DNA of 9,157 bases from an uncultured Eubacteriales bacterium (GTDB lineage Bacteria; Bacillota_A; Clostridia; Lachnospirales; Cellulosilyticaceae), in assembly GCA_900556665.1 (NCBI GenBank), contig USPX01000066.1, forward strand, positions 1-9,157. The letters run 5' to 3'. Shown in pieces: positions 1,369 to 9,153 of this stretch. The first letter of the stretch is position 1. Each line of letters starts with the position of its first letter. A program made the position numbers and the translations under genes. The notes under the pieces were generated by a model. It saw only the letters and a program-made list of their open reading frames with translations. It made no database searches and had not been told where the DNA came from.

Positions 1369-1959
1369 CTATAAACAAGATTTATTAGATCTGTAATACC
1401 TCCAGAGACAATACTTCATACCAGAAGAAATCGTATCTGCCATGCGCATGACTAAAGAAAGCCTGGTATTCTGAAGTACAACCATATTCATAAGGCTACT
1501 GAAATTGACAATGCCTGTGATATGCAGATGTCCTACTGGGGGTAATTCTTTTTTTACACCAGCGCCAGGTGTAATAGAACCCTCGCCAATAGTTAAACAA
1601 CCTACATTATTAGCAGAGCCTAAACAAGCATCGATAGCTAAAATAAGTGCATTTCTATGTTTGTTTAAAATAAGATTTAAGGTTTCTTCTAAATTCTTTG
1701 CATGAACAGGTTCATCTAAAGTGCCATATAATGTGACCTTCTCTTCTCGTAAATCCTTTAATTTATAACCTACTAACGGACCTAGGCTATCACCTGTCGC
1801 GCGGTCTGTACCTATACATACAATAACAAGTTCATCATTATGATAAGGTAAATAGGTTGCAAGGTAGCTATGAAGCTCGTTGCAAAAAGTATTAAAATGA
1901 TTTTCTTCGTTAATGTTGATATATAGGGGAGAGGCTTTATTACTCCACTCAGGATTCAT
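1369..1959 (-). CDS. yyaC: Spore protein YyaC (DUF1256, GPR-like protease fold)
   Basis: The 196-residue product matches the spore_YyaC/DUF1256 family in length and motifs. These include VIVCIGTDRATGDSLGPLVG (residues 45-64), the AIDACLG strand-loop with Asp110, and PGAGVKKELPPVGH (131-144), followed by GIVNFSSLMNMVVLQNTRLS. Members are found in endospore formers and are related to the germination protease GPR and hydrogenase-maturation proteases. Asp52, Asp57 and Asp110 are the acidic residues most likely to matter, but the substrate of YyaC is not established. Translation starts at the ATG at 1957-1959 (minus strand), preceded by a moderate GGTGAT ribosome site; the stop is TAG. It is convergent with the IIC gene and divergent from the MPN-LysM gene. 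Expression during sporulation is expected from the family; the sequence gives only a weak compartment-specific promoter match upstream. Confidence 0.9.
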   Translation of the reverse strand: MNPEWSNKASPLYININEENHFNTFCNELHSYLATYLPYHNDELVIVCIGTDRATGDSLGPLVGYKLKDLREEKVTLYGTLDEPVHAKNLEETLNLILNKHRNALILAIDACLGSANNVGCLTIGEGSITPGAGVKKELPPVGHLHITGIVNFSSLMNMVVLQNTRLSLVMRMADTISSGMKYCLWRYYRSNKSCL

Positions 1960-2019: not shown

Positions 2020-2267
2020 CCCGTTTTTATTAGAATTTATTTAGGAATTTGTTAAAGTAAGTAAAATCAAGGATTCGCACATTAAAGTTTTACAGCTAAA
2101 TATATTTTTAGATCATATAAAATTTGAATCGTTATAAAAATAATTCCTAAAAAGTATAAGATATGCATTCGTAAAGATAGAATTAAAGTAGCTTAAGGCC
2201 AGGTTGTGGTAAAAAAAGTAAAAATAGTACTTAAATTGCAAATAAAAAAACTGATATGTTCGACATA

Positions 2268-2297: not shown

Positions 2298-2345
2298 ATT
2301 CTTTAGGAAATGGATAAAATGGATAATAATGGAAGGAGAATACTT

Positions 2346-3860
2346 ATGGGGAAAATATCTTATAGACCTGGTAAGGGCCAATCTAATAAGAGTAATAAAA
2401 ATACTAAAGTTACAAATCTATATGAAGGCGATGGACAAGATACTAACGTGCAGCATATAAGTGAAGAAGCTGAAGTAGTAGAACAAAGTATTAATGAAGA
2501 GACCTTCAAAGAAAAAATTAATGTAGATGAAGATGTTCAGGATGAAATAGCAGCTACAACATTTAATCAATACGATGAAGTAACAGAAACAATTAATGAT
2601 ATAGACATTAAGGGTACTAGAGAAGTTCCAAATAAAAGTAGACATGAAAAGAAGAAGCTAGATAATGTCAAAATGATTGGTGATATGGATTGTGAATATC
2701 ATGTTTACATGGAGGATTATGTTTATACTTATATTTATCAATATGCTTATTCAGACCTATCTAAAGAAAGTGCAGCTATACTTATTGGTGAAGTATATTT
2801 AGATAGTAAAGAGGCGATGATTACAGGTATGATTCCTGTTGATACAAGTAAGCTTACAGATGGCAGTGAATGGATCAACTTAGATGTTGTTAATGAAATA
2901 GAAGAAAAGCGCAAAGAGTATTTTAAGGATCAAGACATTATTGGGTGGCTACATATGCAACCTGGCTATGGCACTATGCTTACAATGAAAGAGCTTAGAG
3001 AACATAGAAGTGTATTTGAAGGTGCAGGCAGCGTATTTATGTTAGTAGATGCGTTAAATAAAGTAGAGACTGTATATGTTTATGAAGATGAAGAACTCAA
3101 AGAACAAAGTGGATATTGCATGTATTATGAACCTAACGAACCTATGCAAAAATATATGGTAGAGCATCCTTTTGCAAAGAAGGAAACAGAGGAGATTAAG
3201 GATACTGTTGTTAACCAATTTAGAGAAATAGGAAAGATTCGTAAGGAAGAATATCTGCAAAAGAAGAATACAAGCTTTACTATTATGGCAGTAGCTATTG
3301 CTTTAGTAGCTTTAACTGGAATTATCGTAAGAATGAATGATGCAAAAGGTTTGATTGGTAATGAAACAGCAGCAGTTATGTCTGGCAGTGTAGATAATAA
3401 GGAAACAGCACTTAATGAACAGTTAGGCAAAGAGGTAGGGGCTGTAGTAGATGATAAACAATCTGAAACTCCAGCTAATGAAGCAGATGAAGTAACAAAT
3501 ATAGATGAAACAGCTAATACTGATGAAACAACTACTGATGTGGATGAAGCTACAACACCAACTATTACGAAAGAAGAAATAGTTGGAGAAGATATTTCAG
3601 AGGATGAAAGTAATAAAGAGGATACAAAGAAAGTAGATGAAGCAAGTAGCAGTGAAGAAGAAAAGGTAACAAACAATGAAGTAGTAGACGAAGCAGAAGA
3701 TTATGATATTTATGTAGTTAAACAAGGGGATACATTAGCTAATATTAGTTATGATAAATATGGCGATGCTAAAAAGTCATTAGAAATAGCTAAACTTAAT
3801 GATTTAGATAGTACCAATAATATTTATGTTGGGCAAGAATTAAAAATGCCTAAAAAATAA
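2346..3860 (+). CDS. Membrane-anchored degenerate JAB/MPN domain protein with C-terminal LysM
   Basis: The 504-residue protein starts at the ATG at 2346, seven bases after AAGGAG (2333-2338). An in-frame ATG at 2310 has no ribosome site. Residues 1-110 are polar and probably disordered. Residues about 115-262 look like a JAB/MPN (JAMM) domain: ESAAILIGEV (141-150) aligns with Rpn11-like EVMGLMLGEF, and GWLHMQPGYGTMLTMKE (200-216) aligns with the GWYHSHPGFGCWLSxxD signature. Glu141 and His203 are kept, but the second His is Gln205, Ser is Thr213 and the ligand Asp is Glu216. A membrane helix at about 310-328 follows a basic stretch, predicting N-inside, C-outside. An acidic D/E/T/S-rich linker (about 330-452) leads to a LysM domain (453-502; YVVKQGDTLANI, NIYVGQELKMP), which in known families binds peptidoglycan. 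This suggests a link between cytoplasm (mother cell during sporulation) and wall or cortex. Catalysis is doubtful. The LysM call is firm; the MPN call is by motif alignment by eye. Confidence 0.75.
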   Translation: MGKISYRPGKGQSNKSNKNTKVTNLYEGDGQDTNVQHISEEAEVVEQSINEETFKEKINVDEDVQDEIAATTFNQYDEVTETINDIDIKGTREVPNKSRHEKKKLDNVKMIGDMDCEYHVYMEDYVYTYIYQYAYSDLSKESAAILIGEVYLDSKEAMITGMIPVDTSKLTDGSEWINLDVVNEIEEKRKEYFKDQDIIGWLHMQPGYGTMLTMKELREHRSVFEGAGSVFMLVDALNKVETVYVYEDEELKEQSGYCMYYEPNEPMQKYMVEHPFAKKETEEIKDTVVNQFREIGKIRKEEYLQKKNTSFTIMAVAIALVALTGIIVRMNDAKGLIGNETAAVMSGSVDNKETALNEQLGKEVGAVVDDKQSETPANEADEVTNIDETANTDETTTDVDEATTPTITKEEIVGEDISEDESNKEDTKKVDEASSSEEEKVTNNEVVDEAEDYDIYVVKQGDTLANISYDKYGDAKKSLEIAKLNDLDSTNNIYVGQELKMPKK

Positions 3861-5611: not shown

Positions 5612-6796
5612 ATGGCTAATAAATCAAAAAAGGAACATATTAGGCCTATTACTTTACTTTTGGTTATGATCATGTTAAGTGTACTCGCATATGTGGGAAC
5701 GAATGTGTTTGGTGGCTTTTCTTTAACAGGAAATGCAATTAACCTAGGTGAAGCTAAGGAAATTATAAATTTAGATATAAAAGATAATGATTATATAGGG
5801 TTGAATGAAAAACAAATTATTAAAGTTAATCGAGATGGAATTAAGGCATATGACCTAGATGGGTATGAAATTTGGTCGGATACCCTTAGTGTAAATAATT
5901 ATATTGTAAAGCAAAGGGCACCATATATAGCTATAGCCAGCAAAGAAGGAAAAAGGATTTCCTTGTTTAATACCAAGGGAAAAGTAACGGATATTACAGT
6001 AGATAATCCTATTATATATTTTTCAGTAAATGAAAAAGGAGGTATTAGTGTTATTCAAAAATTAAATGGTGGGAATATGGTAGCAGCTTATGATGTAAAT
6101 GGAAAATATTTAGGAGGGATGGTAAGTTACACAAGTAATGAAGGATATCCTACCTCAGTAGAACTTTCAGCAGACAATAAGTTATTACTTGCAACATATG
6201 TGAAAACAGATGAACCAATATTGACATCATCTATACGAGCCATTGCTATGCAACAGGTAGAAGGTGAAGACGGTGAAGGTGTCAAATATGGGATTCTTGA
6301 AAAGGGTAATTTAATTTATGAAGTAGAATTTATAAAAGATAACACATGGGTAAGTATTGGCGATCAAAGGATGACTTGGTATGATATGAATGGTACTGAA
6401 ATTAAAAGTATTACGAATATAAACTCTGTTTTTAGACCATATTTATATAAACAGAGTAAATATGGAAATGGTTTCTTGCCAATTGTTTCAAGTGATAACC
6501 CAACATCTAGTATTATTAAACGTAAAGATAAGTTGACATTTTGGAATGCACAAGGTGATAAAGAGTTTGAAACAGACTTACAAGTAGCAGCAGATTATTT
6601 ATATGTAGATGAACGTGGTGTTGTAATAGGGTCAGATAATCAGTTTGTAGGTTATAACAAAATGGGAAGTCAGACGTTTTCTTATAAGAGTACAATAGAT
6701 GTAAATAAAGTGTTTTATTTATCAGAGATAAGAAAAGGTATTGCGGTAAGTAAGGAAAAAGTAATATTATTAACACCAAAAAGGATGGTGAATTAA
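5612..6796 (+). CDS. DUF5711 family membrane-anchored propeller-like protein
   Basis: The 394-residue product begins at an ATG seven bases after AGGAGG. It has a basic N-terminus (KSKKEHIR) and a single membrane helix at about 12-34, without a clear cleavage site, so the remaining ~360 residues are expected outside the membrane. That part is rich in beta strands and carries a recurring aromatic-[DN]-x-x-G turn: YDLDG (80-84), FNTKG (119-123), YDVNG (160-164), YDMNG (257-261), WNAQG (311-315) and YNKMG (348-352). This resembles beta-propeller blades. The overall pattern fits the DUF5711 family of Clostridia, whose function is not known. The stop codon directly abuts the ATG of the cvpA-like gene, so the two are surely cotranscribed and probably translationally coupled. 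No catalytic motif is visible; a scaffold or sensor role would be a guess. Confidence 0.75.
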   Translation: MANKSKKEHIRPITLLLVMIMLSVLAYVGTNVFGGFSLTGNAINLGEAKEIINLDIKDNDYIGLNEKQIIKVNRDGIKAYDLDGYEIWSDTLSVNNYIVKQRAPYIAIASKEGKRISLFNTKGKVTDITVDNPIIYFSVNEKGGISVIQKLNGGNMVAAYDVNGKYLGGMVSYTSNEGYPTSVELSADNKLLLATYVKTDEPILTSSIRAIAMQQVEGEDGEGVKYGILEKGNLIYEVEFIKDNTWVSIGDQRMTWYDMNGTEIKSITNINSVFRPYLYKQSKYGNGFLPIVSSDNPTSSIIKRKDKLTFWNAQGDKEFETDLQVAADYLYVDERGVVIGSDNQFVGYNKMGSQTFSYKSTIDVNKVFYLSEIRKGIAVSKEKVILLTPKRMVN

Positions 6797-7480
6797 ATGT
6801 TAGATTTAATTATTCTAGGGGTATTACTTATATTTGCATTTATAGGTATGCATAGAGGGCTAATAGATGAGGTTGTTACTTTATTAGGTTCACTGGGTGC
6901 ACTTGTATTATCTTTTATTGTCTATCCAGTAATTAATATAATTTTAAAACTTACACCTTTATATACATATATTAATGAATGGGTAAGAGATAAAGTGGGT
7001 GCTATTCAATTTGGTATGGGAGTACAATCACAAGGAAATGCTATTGTGCAGAATCTTACTTGGTTACCAGATTTTATGAGTGAAACATTGGTGAAGAATA
7101 ATAATATAGAAGTATATAAAGCTTTAGGCGCTAGTAATATAGTAGATTATGTCAGTATTTCAATAACAAATATTATTATGGCAATGTTAGCATTACTTAT
7201 TACTTGGATTATTTTAAAAGTAATTTTAGTTGGAAGTGTACGTGTTGTTGGGAGATTTGTTGCTAAGTTACCTGTTATTTCAAGCTTTAATAAGATGGGT
7301 GGTTTTATAATAGGACTTATGAAAGGGCTGCTTACTTTTTGGGTAATTGCATTAGTTGTACCATGTATTATAGCAATTCCTAGTAGTGAAGGTATAGAAG
7401 CAGTTATAGAGGGAAGTGTATTATTTAAATGGCTTTATGAAAATAACCTAGTGTTATTAGCATTTCAGCGAATGTTTTAA
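6797..7480 (+). CDS. CvpA family membrane protein
   Basis: The 227-residue product fits the CvpA/colicin V production family. Its N-terminus MLDLIILGVLLIFAFIGMHR is followed by GLIDEVVTLLGSLGALVLSF. Four membrane segments are predicted at about 3-19, 25-50, 118-147 and 165-194, and the last begins with the typical glycine-rich NKMGGFIIGLMKGLL. A polar loop of about 65 residues separates helices two and three and probably lies outside the membrane, next to the exported part of the DUF5711 partner. CvpA proteins have been linked to colicin V export and envelope stress tolerance in enterobacteria, but their biochemical activity is unsettled. The ATG follows the upstream TAA with no gap, and its ribosome site (AAGGATGGTG, 6781-6790) lies inside the DUF5711 gene. 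A terminator follows. Confidence 0.85.
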   Translation: MLDLIILGVLLIFAFIGMHRGLIDEVVTLLGSLGALVLSFIVYPVINIILKLTPLYTYINEWVRDKVGAIQFGMGVQSQGNAIVQNLTWLPDFMSETLVKNNNIEVYKALGASNIVDYVSISITNIIMAMLALLITWIILKVILVGSVRVVGRFVAKLPVISSFNKMGGFIIGLMKGLLTFWVIALVVPCIIAIPSSEGIEAVIEGSVLFKWLYENNLVLLAFQRMF

Positions 7481-7679: not shown

Positions 7680-7697
7680 ATATGAGGAGCATATTTG

Positions 7698-8576
7698 ATG
7701 AATGAGAGATTACAATTAAATAAAAATCTAGCGCAAATGTTAAAAGGTGGCGTCATTATGGATGTAGTTAATCCTAATGAGGCTATAATAGCAGAAAAAG
7801 CAGGAGCTGTAGCAGTTATGGCACTGGAGAGAGTGCCTTCGGATATACGTAAACAAGGTGGAGTAGCAAGAATGTCAGATCCTAAAATGATTAGAGAGAT
7901 TCAAGAAGCAGTAAGTATTCCAGTAATGGCTAAAGTACGTATAGGACATTTTGTAGAAGCACAAATTTTAGAAGCATTAGAAATTGATTATATTGATGAG
8001 AGTGAAGTATTAACACCAGCAGATGAAGATTATCATATTAATAAACATGATTTTAAGGTGCCATATGTATGTGGCGCACGTAATTTAGGAGAAGCGTTAA
8101 GACGTATAGGAGAAGGTGCAGCTATGATTCGTACAAAAGGAGAAGCTGGTACTGGAAATGTTGTAGAGGCTGTAAGACATATGCGTACAATGAATAAAGA
8201 AATTGCAAAAGTAGTGGGTGCAACAAATGAAGAACTTATGACAATAGCTAAAGAATTAGGAGCACCTTATGAACTTGTTTGTTATGTAAAAGAAAATGGT
8301 AAATTGCCAGTAGTGAATTTTGCAGCAGGAGGAATAGCAACACCAGCAGATGCGGCACTTATGATGCAATTAGGAGCTGATGGTGTATTTGTAGGTTCTG
8401 GTATATTTAAATCATCAAATCCAGAAGCAAGAGCAAAGGCTATTGTAAAAGCTACAACATATTATAATGATCCAAAGGTATTAGCAGAAGTATCAGCAGG
8501 GATAGGAGAAGCAATGACATCTATAGATATTCGTCAGCTAGATGAAAAACAACTTTACGCTACAAGAGGGTGGTAA
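7698..8576 (+). CDS. pdxS: Pyridoxal 5'-phosphate synthase, synthase subunit PdxS
   Basis: PdxS builds pyridoxal 5'-phosphate from ribose 5-phosphate, glyceraldehyde 3-phosphate and ammonia delivered by PdxT. The 292-residue product keeps the family's strong conservation throughout its (beta/alpha)8 barrel. Asp22 (GGVIMDVV), Lys79 ([14 protein letters not shown]) and Lys147 ([12 protein letters not shown]) correspond to Asp24, Lys81 and Lys149 of the Bacillus subtilis enzyme. The phosphate-binding glycines lie in [33 protein letters not shown] choose the ATG at 7698, eight bases after GAGGAG (7684-7689), over the adjacent TTG at 7695, which would be only five bases away. pdxT follows after one base. 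The upstream leader carries a perfect palindrome suggesting transcriptional control. Confidence 0.97.
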
Positions 8577-8580
8577 GATG
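8565..8580 (+). promoter_or_regulatory. pdxT ribosome site overlapping the pdxS end
   Basis: AGAGGGTGG (8565-8573) in the last codons of pdxS serves the ATG at 8578, which lies one base after the pdxS TAA. The arrangement implies translational coupling and excludes the in-frame upstream ATG at 8542 inside pdxS. Confidence 0.75.
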
Positions 8581-9153
8581 AAAACAATAGGTGTTTTAGG
8601 ATTACAAGGTGGTGTAGAAGAACATCTAAAAATGTTAAGTGGCATAAAAGGTGTAAAACCTGTAGAAGTTAAGTATATAGAAGAACTTGAAAAGATAGAT
8701 GGTCTTATTATTCCTGGAGGAGAGAGCACTACTTTAAGTAGGCTATTAAGAAGTTTTAATATGCTAGAACCATTAAAGAATAAGATTAAAGAAGGTTTGC
8801 CTACATGGGGAACATGTGCAGGGATGATTTTATTAGCAAAGAATATTGAAGATGAGCCAATGTACCATTTGGGAACAATGGATGTAAGTGTGAAGAGAAA
8901 TGCATATGGTAGGCAATTGGGAAGTTTTCAGGTAGAATCCGATATAGAAAAGATGGGGATAAAAGGAATGCCTCTAGTTTTTATAAGAGCACCCTATATT
9001 ATAGAAGCAAGAAAAGATGTAGAGATATTATTAAAGCAAGAAGATAAAATAGTGGCATGCAGGCAAGCTAACATGTTAGCGACTTCATTCCATCCAGAAC
9101 TTACAGAAGATAATAGAGTTCATGAATACTTTATAAACGAGTTTGTTAACTAA
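8578..9153 (+). CDS. pdxT: Pyridoxal 5'-phosphate synthase, glutaminase subunit PdxT
   Basis: PdxT is the class I glutamine amidotransferase that hydrolyses glutamine and channels ammonia to PdxS in the 12+12 PLP synthase complex. The 191-residue product starts MKTIGVLGLQGGVEEH. It carries the glutamine-binding PGGESTTLSRLL (46-57), the nucleophile Cys80 in WGTCAGM, the RNAYGRQLGSFQ loop (107-118), and the catalytic His172 and Glu174 in SFHPELT. These equal Cys79, His170 and Glu172 of the Bacillus subtilis enzyme. The triad is intact and the length is normal. The gene is complete: TAA at 9151-9153, four bases before the window ends. Any terminator lies outside. Confidence 0.97.
   Translation: MKTIGVLGLQGGVEEHLKMLSGIKGVKPVEVKYIEELEKIDGLIIPGGESTTLSRLLRSFNMLEPLKNKIKEGLPTWGTCAGMILLAKNIEDEPMYHLGTMDVSVKRNAYGRQLGSFQVESDIEKMGIKGMPLVFIRAPYIIEARKDVEILLKQEDKIVACRQANMLATSFHPELTEDNRVHEYFINEFVN

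Follow-up and report, generated by a model that had tools for sequence, protein, structure and literature searches.

A predicted membrane protein with a degenerate MPN domain and a LysM domain, and its probable link to sporulation in a clostridial order

The locus and its MPN-TM-LysM protein

The window, meaning here the whole stretch of 9,157 nucleotides that was analysed, carries a gene for a protein that joins a degenerate MPN domain, a single transmembrane (TM) helix and a LysM domain, together with a divergent yyaC gene and an upstream element between the two. These features are as follows.

1369..1959, minus strand: divergent yyaC (DUF1256), a sporulation-associated GPR-like protein (PF06866, E 9.9e-60)
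2259..2265, minus strand: TGTCGAA, matching the 0A-box core exactly, 86 bp ahead of the start codon
2292..2299, plus strand: TATAGTAT, a conserved element resembling a -10 box, 26 bp beyond the 0A-like box
2346..3860, plus strand: the MPN-TM-LysM protein, with its start placed by the conserved MGK.SYRP start in the alignment of relatives
2694..3176, plus strand: degenerate MPN (JAB/Mov34) domain, predicted cytosolic
2766..2768, plus strand: Glu153 (141 in the sequence-only reading), in the place of the JAMM catalytic glutamate
2943..2993, plus strand: GWLHMQPGYGTMLTMKE, the former metal loop, with His215, Gln217 (was His), Thr225 (was Ser) and Glu228 (was Asp)
3273..3329, plus strand: single TM helix, residues 322-340, predicted N-in/C-out
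3711..3851, plus strand: LysM domain, predicted outside (PF01476, E 3.5e-8)

The listed open reading frame (2310-3860, plus strand) encodes 516 residues and probably starts at Met13 (MGKISY, position 2346), which is residue 1 in the earlier, sequence-only reading of this DNA. The LysM domain lies above the Pfam curated cut-off (33.7 bits versus 20.9) and is matched in all 42 full-length relatives at E <= 0.001, and a hydrophobic helix follows the MPN domain in 84 of the 85 proteins of at least 240 residues, the remaining one being masked. In the window protein, the 20 residues preceding the helix contain six lysines or arginines and those after it two, and an excess on the N-terminal side recurs in 81 of the 85 proteins. 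With the positive charge so distributed, the MPN domain should be inside and the LysM domain outside, and the window protein should accordingly consist of a cytosolic MPN domain, one TM helix and an external LysM domain.

Elsewhere in the window, a DUF5711 propeller-like protein and CvpA are encoded side by side at 5612-7480. The pdxS and pdxT genes occupy 7695-9153; their listed reading frames overlap (8542-8576), and the real pdxT start perhaps lies further in.

Membership of the MPN fold

The proposal that a degenerate MPN domain is hidden beside LysM is borne out by profile, fold and family evidence. The JAB family PF01398 matches the window protein at E 0.061 (13.6 bits) and the domain alone at E 0.004 (17.4 bits), neither of which reaches the curated Pfam cut-off of 22.5 bits. 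The expectation that standard annotation would probably miss the domain thus holds for the window protein itself, but not for some of its relatives, such as P0070 (28.0 bits) and P0087 (27.2 bits), which exceed that cut-off. PF01398 is matched at E <= 0.1 in 48 of 62 relatives and at E <= 0.001 in six of the 42 full-length ones, and precomputed annotation carries it in eight of 120 homologues among the matches listed. A profile search for JAB/MPN similarity, the check that had been suggested, recovered Rpn11 and other MPN proteins. When the domain was compared by phmmer with PDB sequences, yeast Rpn11 was the best match (E 6.4e-4) and 28 of the 29 rows were MPN proteins (Rpn11/PSMD14, Csn5, Csn6, Prp8), the odd one being VP14465 at E 0.23, and a 62-member profile found Caldiarchaeum Rpn11 as its best PDB match (2e-8) and yeast Rpn11 at 2.5e-6. 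The window protein belongs to the MPN fold, and we regard both the fold and the dead site described below as firm. Weak Pfam matches on single members (ETRAMP, Vpu, DHR-2 and others) were dismissed as chance.

The former metal site

JAMM enzymes carry the motif EXnHS/THX7SXXD, in which the histidines and the aspartate sit on zinc (PMC300881). This motif is absent from the window protein, which presents Glu153, His215, Gln217, Thr225 and Glu228 at the five positions, and the two stretches concerned lie where the sequence-only reading had placed them, namely ESAAILIGEV at its residues 141-150 (2766-2795) and the loop at its residues 200-216. In all 121 homologue rows, in which the window protein is included twice (P0001, P0002), the five positions read E, H, Q, T and E; G212, W213, P218, G219, Y220, G221, T222 and H232 are invariant as well, and in Cellulosilyticum-type proteins the loop GW-H-QPGYG is almost fixed. 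The wider clade was compared in 191 rows, comprising 124 proteins (P0122-P0245) and 67 locus rows, near relatives included. Not one of these rows has the second histidine (position 217), which is glutamine in 163. The first histidine is present in 124 and replaced in 67 (by Gln in 29, Leu in 12, Tyr in 10, and by others), Glu153 is retained in most, and the Ser and Asp positions vary freely while the protein stays conserved.

Because the second histidine is absent throughout the clade, catalysis by the JAMM mechanism appears very unlikely in the window protein, and the conservation of the former metal loop suggests a binding surface instead. Of the two options raised earlier, a pseudoenzyme or a metal-altered domain, the first is therefore favoured; the second stays conceivable, since the window protein retains His215 together with an acidic residue, and a metal might still be bound by His215 and Glu228.

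Intact relatives in ubiquitin-like operons

Bacterial operons of JAB, E1, E2 and ubiquitin-like (Ubl) genes have been described (Iyer et al. 2006, PMC1779556), and intact JAMM-TM(-LysM) homologues of the window protein are encoded in operons of this kind. Unlike the operons in that account, the window locus has a dead JAMM site, and Pfam identifies no Ubl, E1, E2 or RING among its genes. Outside the clade, an intact site of Glu, HTHP, Ser and Asp was found in 10 copies in six loci (L092-L097); the 16 outside-clade loci (L090-L105) comprise six intact, two with HxC and eight otherwise degenerate. At L095, Pfam identifies as neighbours a YukD/ubiquitin-like protein, ThiF (E1), UQ_con with FHA (E2), a trypsin-like protein, Prok-RING_1 and two JAB proteins, one with LysM. 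When 101 loci were scanned with L095-type neighbours, E1, E2 and RING occurred together in five of the six intact loci and Ubl in four; L094, intact and on a contig of 4.2 kb, has RING alone of the scanned operon genes. No ubiquitin-like operon gene was met in the 95 remaining scanned loci, a number that includes many short stretches, duplicates and the unrelated L003.

The MPN-TM-LysM layout is common to the clade proteins and the intact operon homologues. Given that operon genes occur in all six intact loci and in none of the 95 others, the window protein resembles a degenerate relative of a bacterial deconjugase. The earlier suggestion to look among orthologues for a full HxH...D set accordingly yielded none within the same clade; complete sets lie in homologues inside ubiquitin-like conjugation operons. 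Intermediate forms also exist: L090 and L091 combine HxC, and L046 combines HxQ, with Ser and Asp. A quick tree, made without bootstrap from 73 of the 87 rows after the removal of 14 near-copies and with several long branches flagged, puts the 56 clade rows together on one side of a branch (SH-aLRT 96); its root was placed by hand on the intact group, which no single branch sets apart, as L101 falls inside it. Since Rpn11 has the same intact motif, we infer that change probably ran from the intact to the degenerate site. Horizontal transfer from a eukaryote was considered and is not favoured, because intact bacterial homologues exist and the best PDB profile match is archaeal; the tree had no eukaryotic or archaeal sequences. 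Moreover, the operon E2 region is matched in only three of 295 sampled genomes of the host's order (G249, G257, G278), eight other matches covering the FHA part alone, against 214 of 295 for the MPN protein, so the pseudo-MPN gene mostly occurs without that system.

Several variants were noted beside these. The genes at L090:704-1870 and L091:4896-6065 encode solitary MPN-TM-LysM proteins with HxC for HxH and with Ser and Asp retained, and that of L090 adjoins, by eye, ethanolamine-type microcompartment-like genes. At L106:2019-3254 and L107:3918-5330, the former metal-loop stretch is gone and the flanking domain parts, TM and LysM are present; lacking the motif stretch, these two were left out of the motif table and the tree. 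Distant MPN-like proteins at L098, L099, L100, L104 and L105 carry GWYG(V/I)R where the metal loop would be and retain the Asp; in four, the C-terminal end looks LysM-like by eye.

Distribution and the probable link to sporulation

The MPN protein occurs in 23 of 24 genomes of the host's family, in the above 214 order genomes at E <= 0.01 and, with a wider profile, in 25 of 391 genomes of its class at E <= 0.001; its nearest named relative, at about 75% identity, is from Cellulosilyticum ruminicola. Judging by the named relatives, the order is probably Lachnospirales. A whole-genome scan by protein gave one locus, and a second profile search added six further proteins among the matches listed. 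A candidate second copy in C. ruminicola (G001:C9, E 0.004) was rejected, as it overlaps by eye a dihydropteroate-synthase-like reading frame. No description of a LysM-MPN or MPN-sporulation protein was found in the open-licence PMC literature.

The sporulation marker SpoIVA is present in 212 of the 295 order genomes, and the MPN protein co-occurs with it. Both are found in 198 genomes, the MPN protein alone in 16, SpoIVA alone in 14 and neither in 67, which leaves 30 discordant genomes and gives a phi of 0.747 (Fisher 1e-36, a statistic that ignores shared descent), or 0.734 without the four weak MPN matches. If sporulation was lost in few lineages, the independent events behind this pattern would be few as well. 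As a control, the neighbouring gene glgA, present in 264 of the 295 genomes, shows a phi of 0.007 with SpoIVA, and its presence in 63 of the 67 double-negative genomes indicates that poor assemblies do not explain the pattern.

The divergent neighbour points the same way. In C. perfringens, yyaC is sporulation-specific and depends on Spo0A and sigma E (PMC9332280), and a table based on B. subtilis assigns it to the regulon of sigma F (PMC3416734). DUF1256/yyaC occurs in 116 of the 295 genomes, 113 of which have the MPN protein, and the two genes are divergent neighbours in 81 of the 84 genomes compared, the other three having them on separate contigs; in G109 they are adjacent on the same strand. 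The pairing is not universal, as just 111 of the 212 SpoIVA genomes have DUF1256. Among neighbour clusters in the fetched loci, yyaC leads with 26, followed by DUF5711 (14), glgA (13) and CvpA (10), and the downstream window genes glgA, DUF5711 and CvpA are not sporulation genes. Genome comparison thus makes a strong, though indirect, case that the MPN protein is probably a sporulation gene of the host's order, and as its gene sits mostly in SpoIVA carriers, an old tag remover may have been reused as a non-cutting part of spore formation.

The upstream element

The consensus of the 0A box is given as TGTCGAA (PMC3485338). The plus strand of the window reads TTCGACA ahead of the MPN start, which is that consensus on the other strand. 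Of 71 clade loci, 32 have TGTCGA in the 250 bp upstream, versus 39 of 397 control ORFs, a rough control in which some ORFs overlap and one locus can contribute several genes; first-order shuffles yield an average of 2.2. In 22 of the 71 loci, from several families (rows that include close relatives), it lies on the minus strand between -70 and -86, and in most of the 22 a TAT(A/G)GTA-like element lies about 26 bp beyond the box. The exact TGTCGAA is present in five of the 71 upstream regions and TGNCGAA in nine. The boxes counted in PMC3485338 were those on the gene's own strand, whereas the boxes of the MPN genes are on the opposite strand and face away from the gene.

Beyond the sequence-only reading, the analysis adds the sporulation link, the operon ancestry and this conserved putative promoter element.

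Proposed role and alternatives

We favour, with a probability of roughly 0.68, a reading in which a catalytically dead cytosolic MPN domain, joined by a TM helix to an outside LysM domain, makes the protein a non-catalytic scaffold tied to spore-envelope peptidoglycan. The gene would be expressed early in sporulation under Spo0A; the LysM end would hold peptidoglycan of the septum, forespore wall or cortex; and the MPN end, with its old active-site face as a conserved surface, would dock a cytosolic partner at the membrane. The protein might thereby act without cutting, by analogy with Rpn8 and Csn6, which are MPN-minus scaffold subunits of their complexes. A broader evolutionary version, to which we give even odds, holds that endospore formation in a single clostridial order took over a deconjugase from a bacterial ubiquitin-like system, and that this protein, its metal site gone, is now an order-wide, Spo0A-controlled membrane scaffold coupling a cytosolic partner to spore-envelope peptidoglycan. 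This would be a bacterial counterpart of the eukaryotic transition from MPN+ to MPN-minus, with the intermediates (HxH, HxC, HxQ with Ser and Asp) still visible.

The same pseudo-MPN envelope protein may instead serve general cell-wall or division work, its co-occurrence with SpoIVA being lineage history through joint loss in reduced or divergent groups. The 16 genomes that have the MPN protein without SpoIVA, the housekeeping genes among the neighbours and the neglect of phylogeny in the statistic agree with such a role, but glgA behaves otherwise in the same 295 genomes, being unassociated and present in nearly all double negatives, and the divergent yyaC and the 0A-box-like element also speak against it; we consider it unlikely, though worth keeping in mind.

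A partner-less deconjugase remnant might, alternatively, still bind a YukD-type ubiquitin-like protein encoded elsewhere in the genome, as would suit a conserved former active-site face and nearest intact homologues that sit beside a YukD-like Ubl; the rarity in the order of the E2 of that system, and stretches fetched around pseudo-MPN genes in which Ubl, E1, E2 and RING were not found, render this improbable. About equally improbable is that the protein still works as a metalloenzyme whose site has changed (Glu, His and Gln/Glu as ligands), for example as a peptidase or deamidase. The near-fixed loop of Cellulosilyticum-type proteins and the frequent retention of Glu153 and His215 might be read as its traces, but the 67 rows in which the first histidine is gone, and the free Ser and Asp positions, in a protein that is still conserved, speak against it.

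Relation to known systems

The window protein has several partial counterparts. From the JAMM/MPN+ deubiquitinases (Rpn11, Csn5 and archaeal CsRpn11), the window protein differs in the replacement of the second His, Ser and Asp, and in its fusion to TM and LysM without a proteasome or signalosome context. With Rpn8, Csn6 and eIF3f/h, which are MPN folds with a degenerate site, it shares just that combination; unlike them, it is bacterial and membrane-bound, decayed separately, from a bacterial deconjugase as it appears, and has no MPN+ partner in view. SafA, SpoVID and SipL are spore-envelope LysM proteins without an MPN domain; LysM and a sporulation link are common to them and the window protein, which is unlike them in spanning the membrane, as predicted, and in having an MPN domain. 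In C. difficile germination, CspC is a pseudoprotease (PMC6636752), and the likeness lies in a dead protease reused in spore biology, although CspC as described there is subtilisin-like, not MPN, and soluble.

The operon ancestry and the spore link are of more interest than the degeneracy of the site alone. Dead MPN domains are scaffolds of eukaryotic complexes, and a comparable bacterial path would lead from intact JAMM in ubiquitin-like operons, through HxC and HxQ, to an inactive domain encoded by a widespread gene. Should the sporulation link be true, an uncharacterised envelope factor would be added to spore formation in the host's order, which is rich in gut bacteria, and bacterial ubiquitin-like systems would be tied to a developmental programme.

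At L092-L095, tandem pairs of intact JAMM-TM genes surround a Prok-RING/zinc-ribbon gene, with LysM apparently on one member of each pair. These recall MPN pairs such as Rpn11-Rpn8, but unlike there, both copies at L092-L095 are intact.
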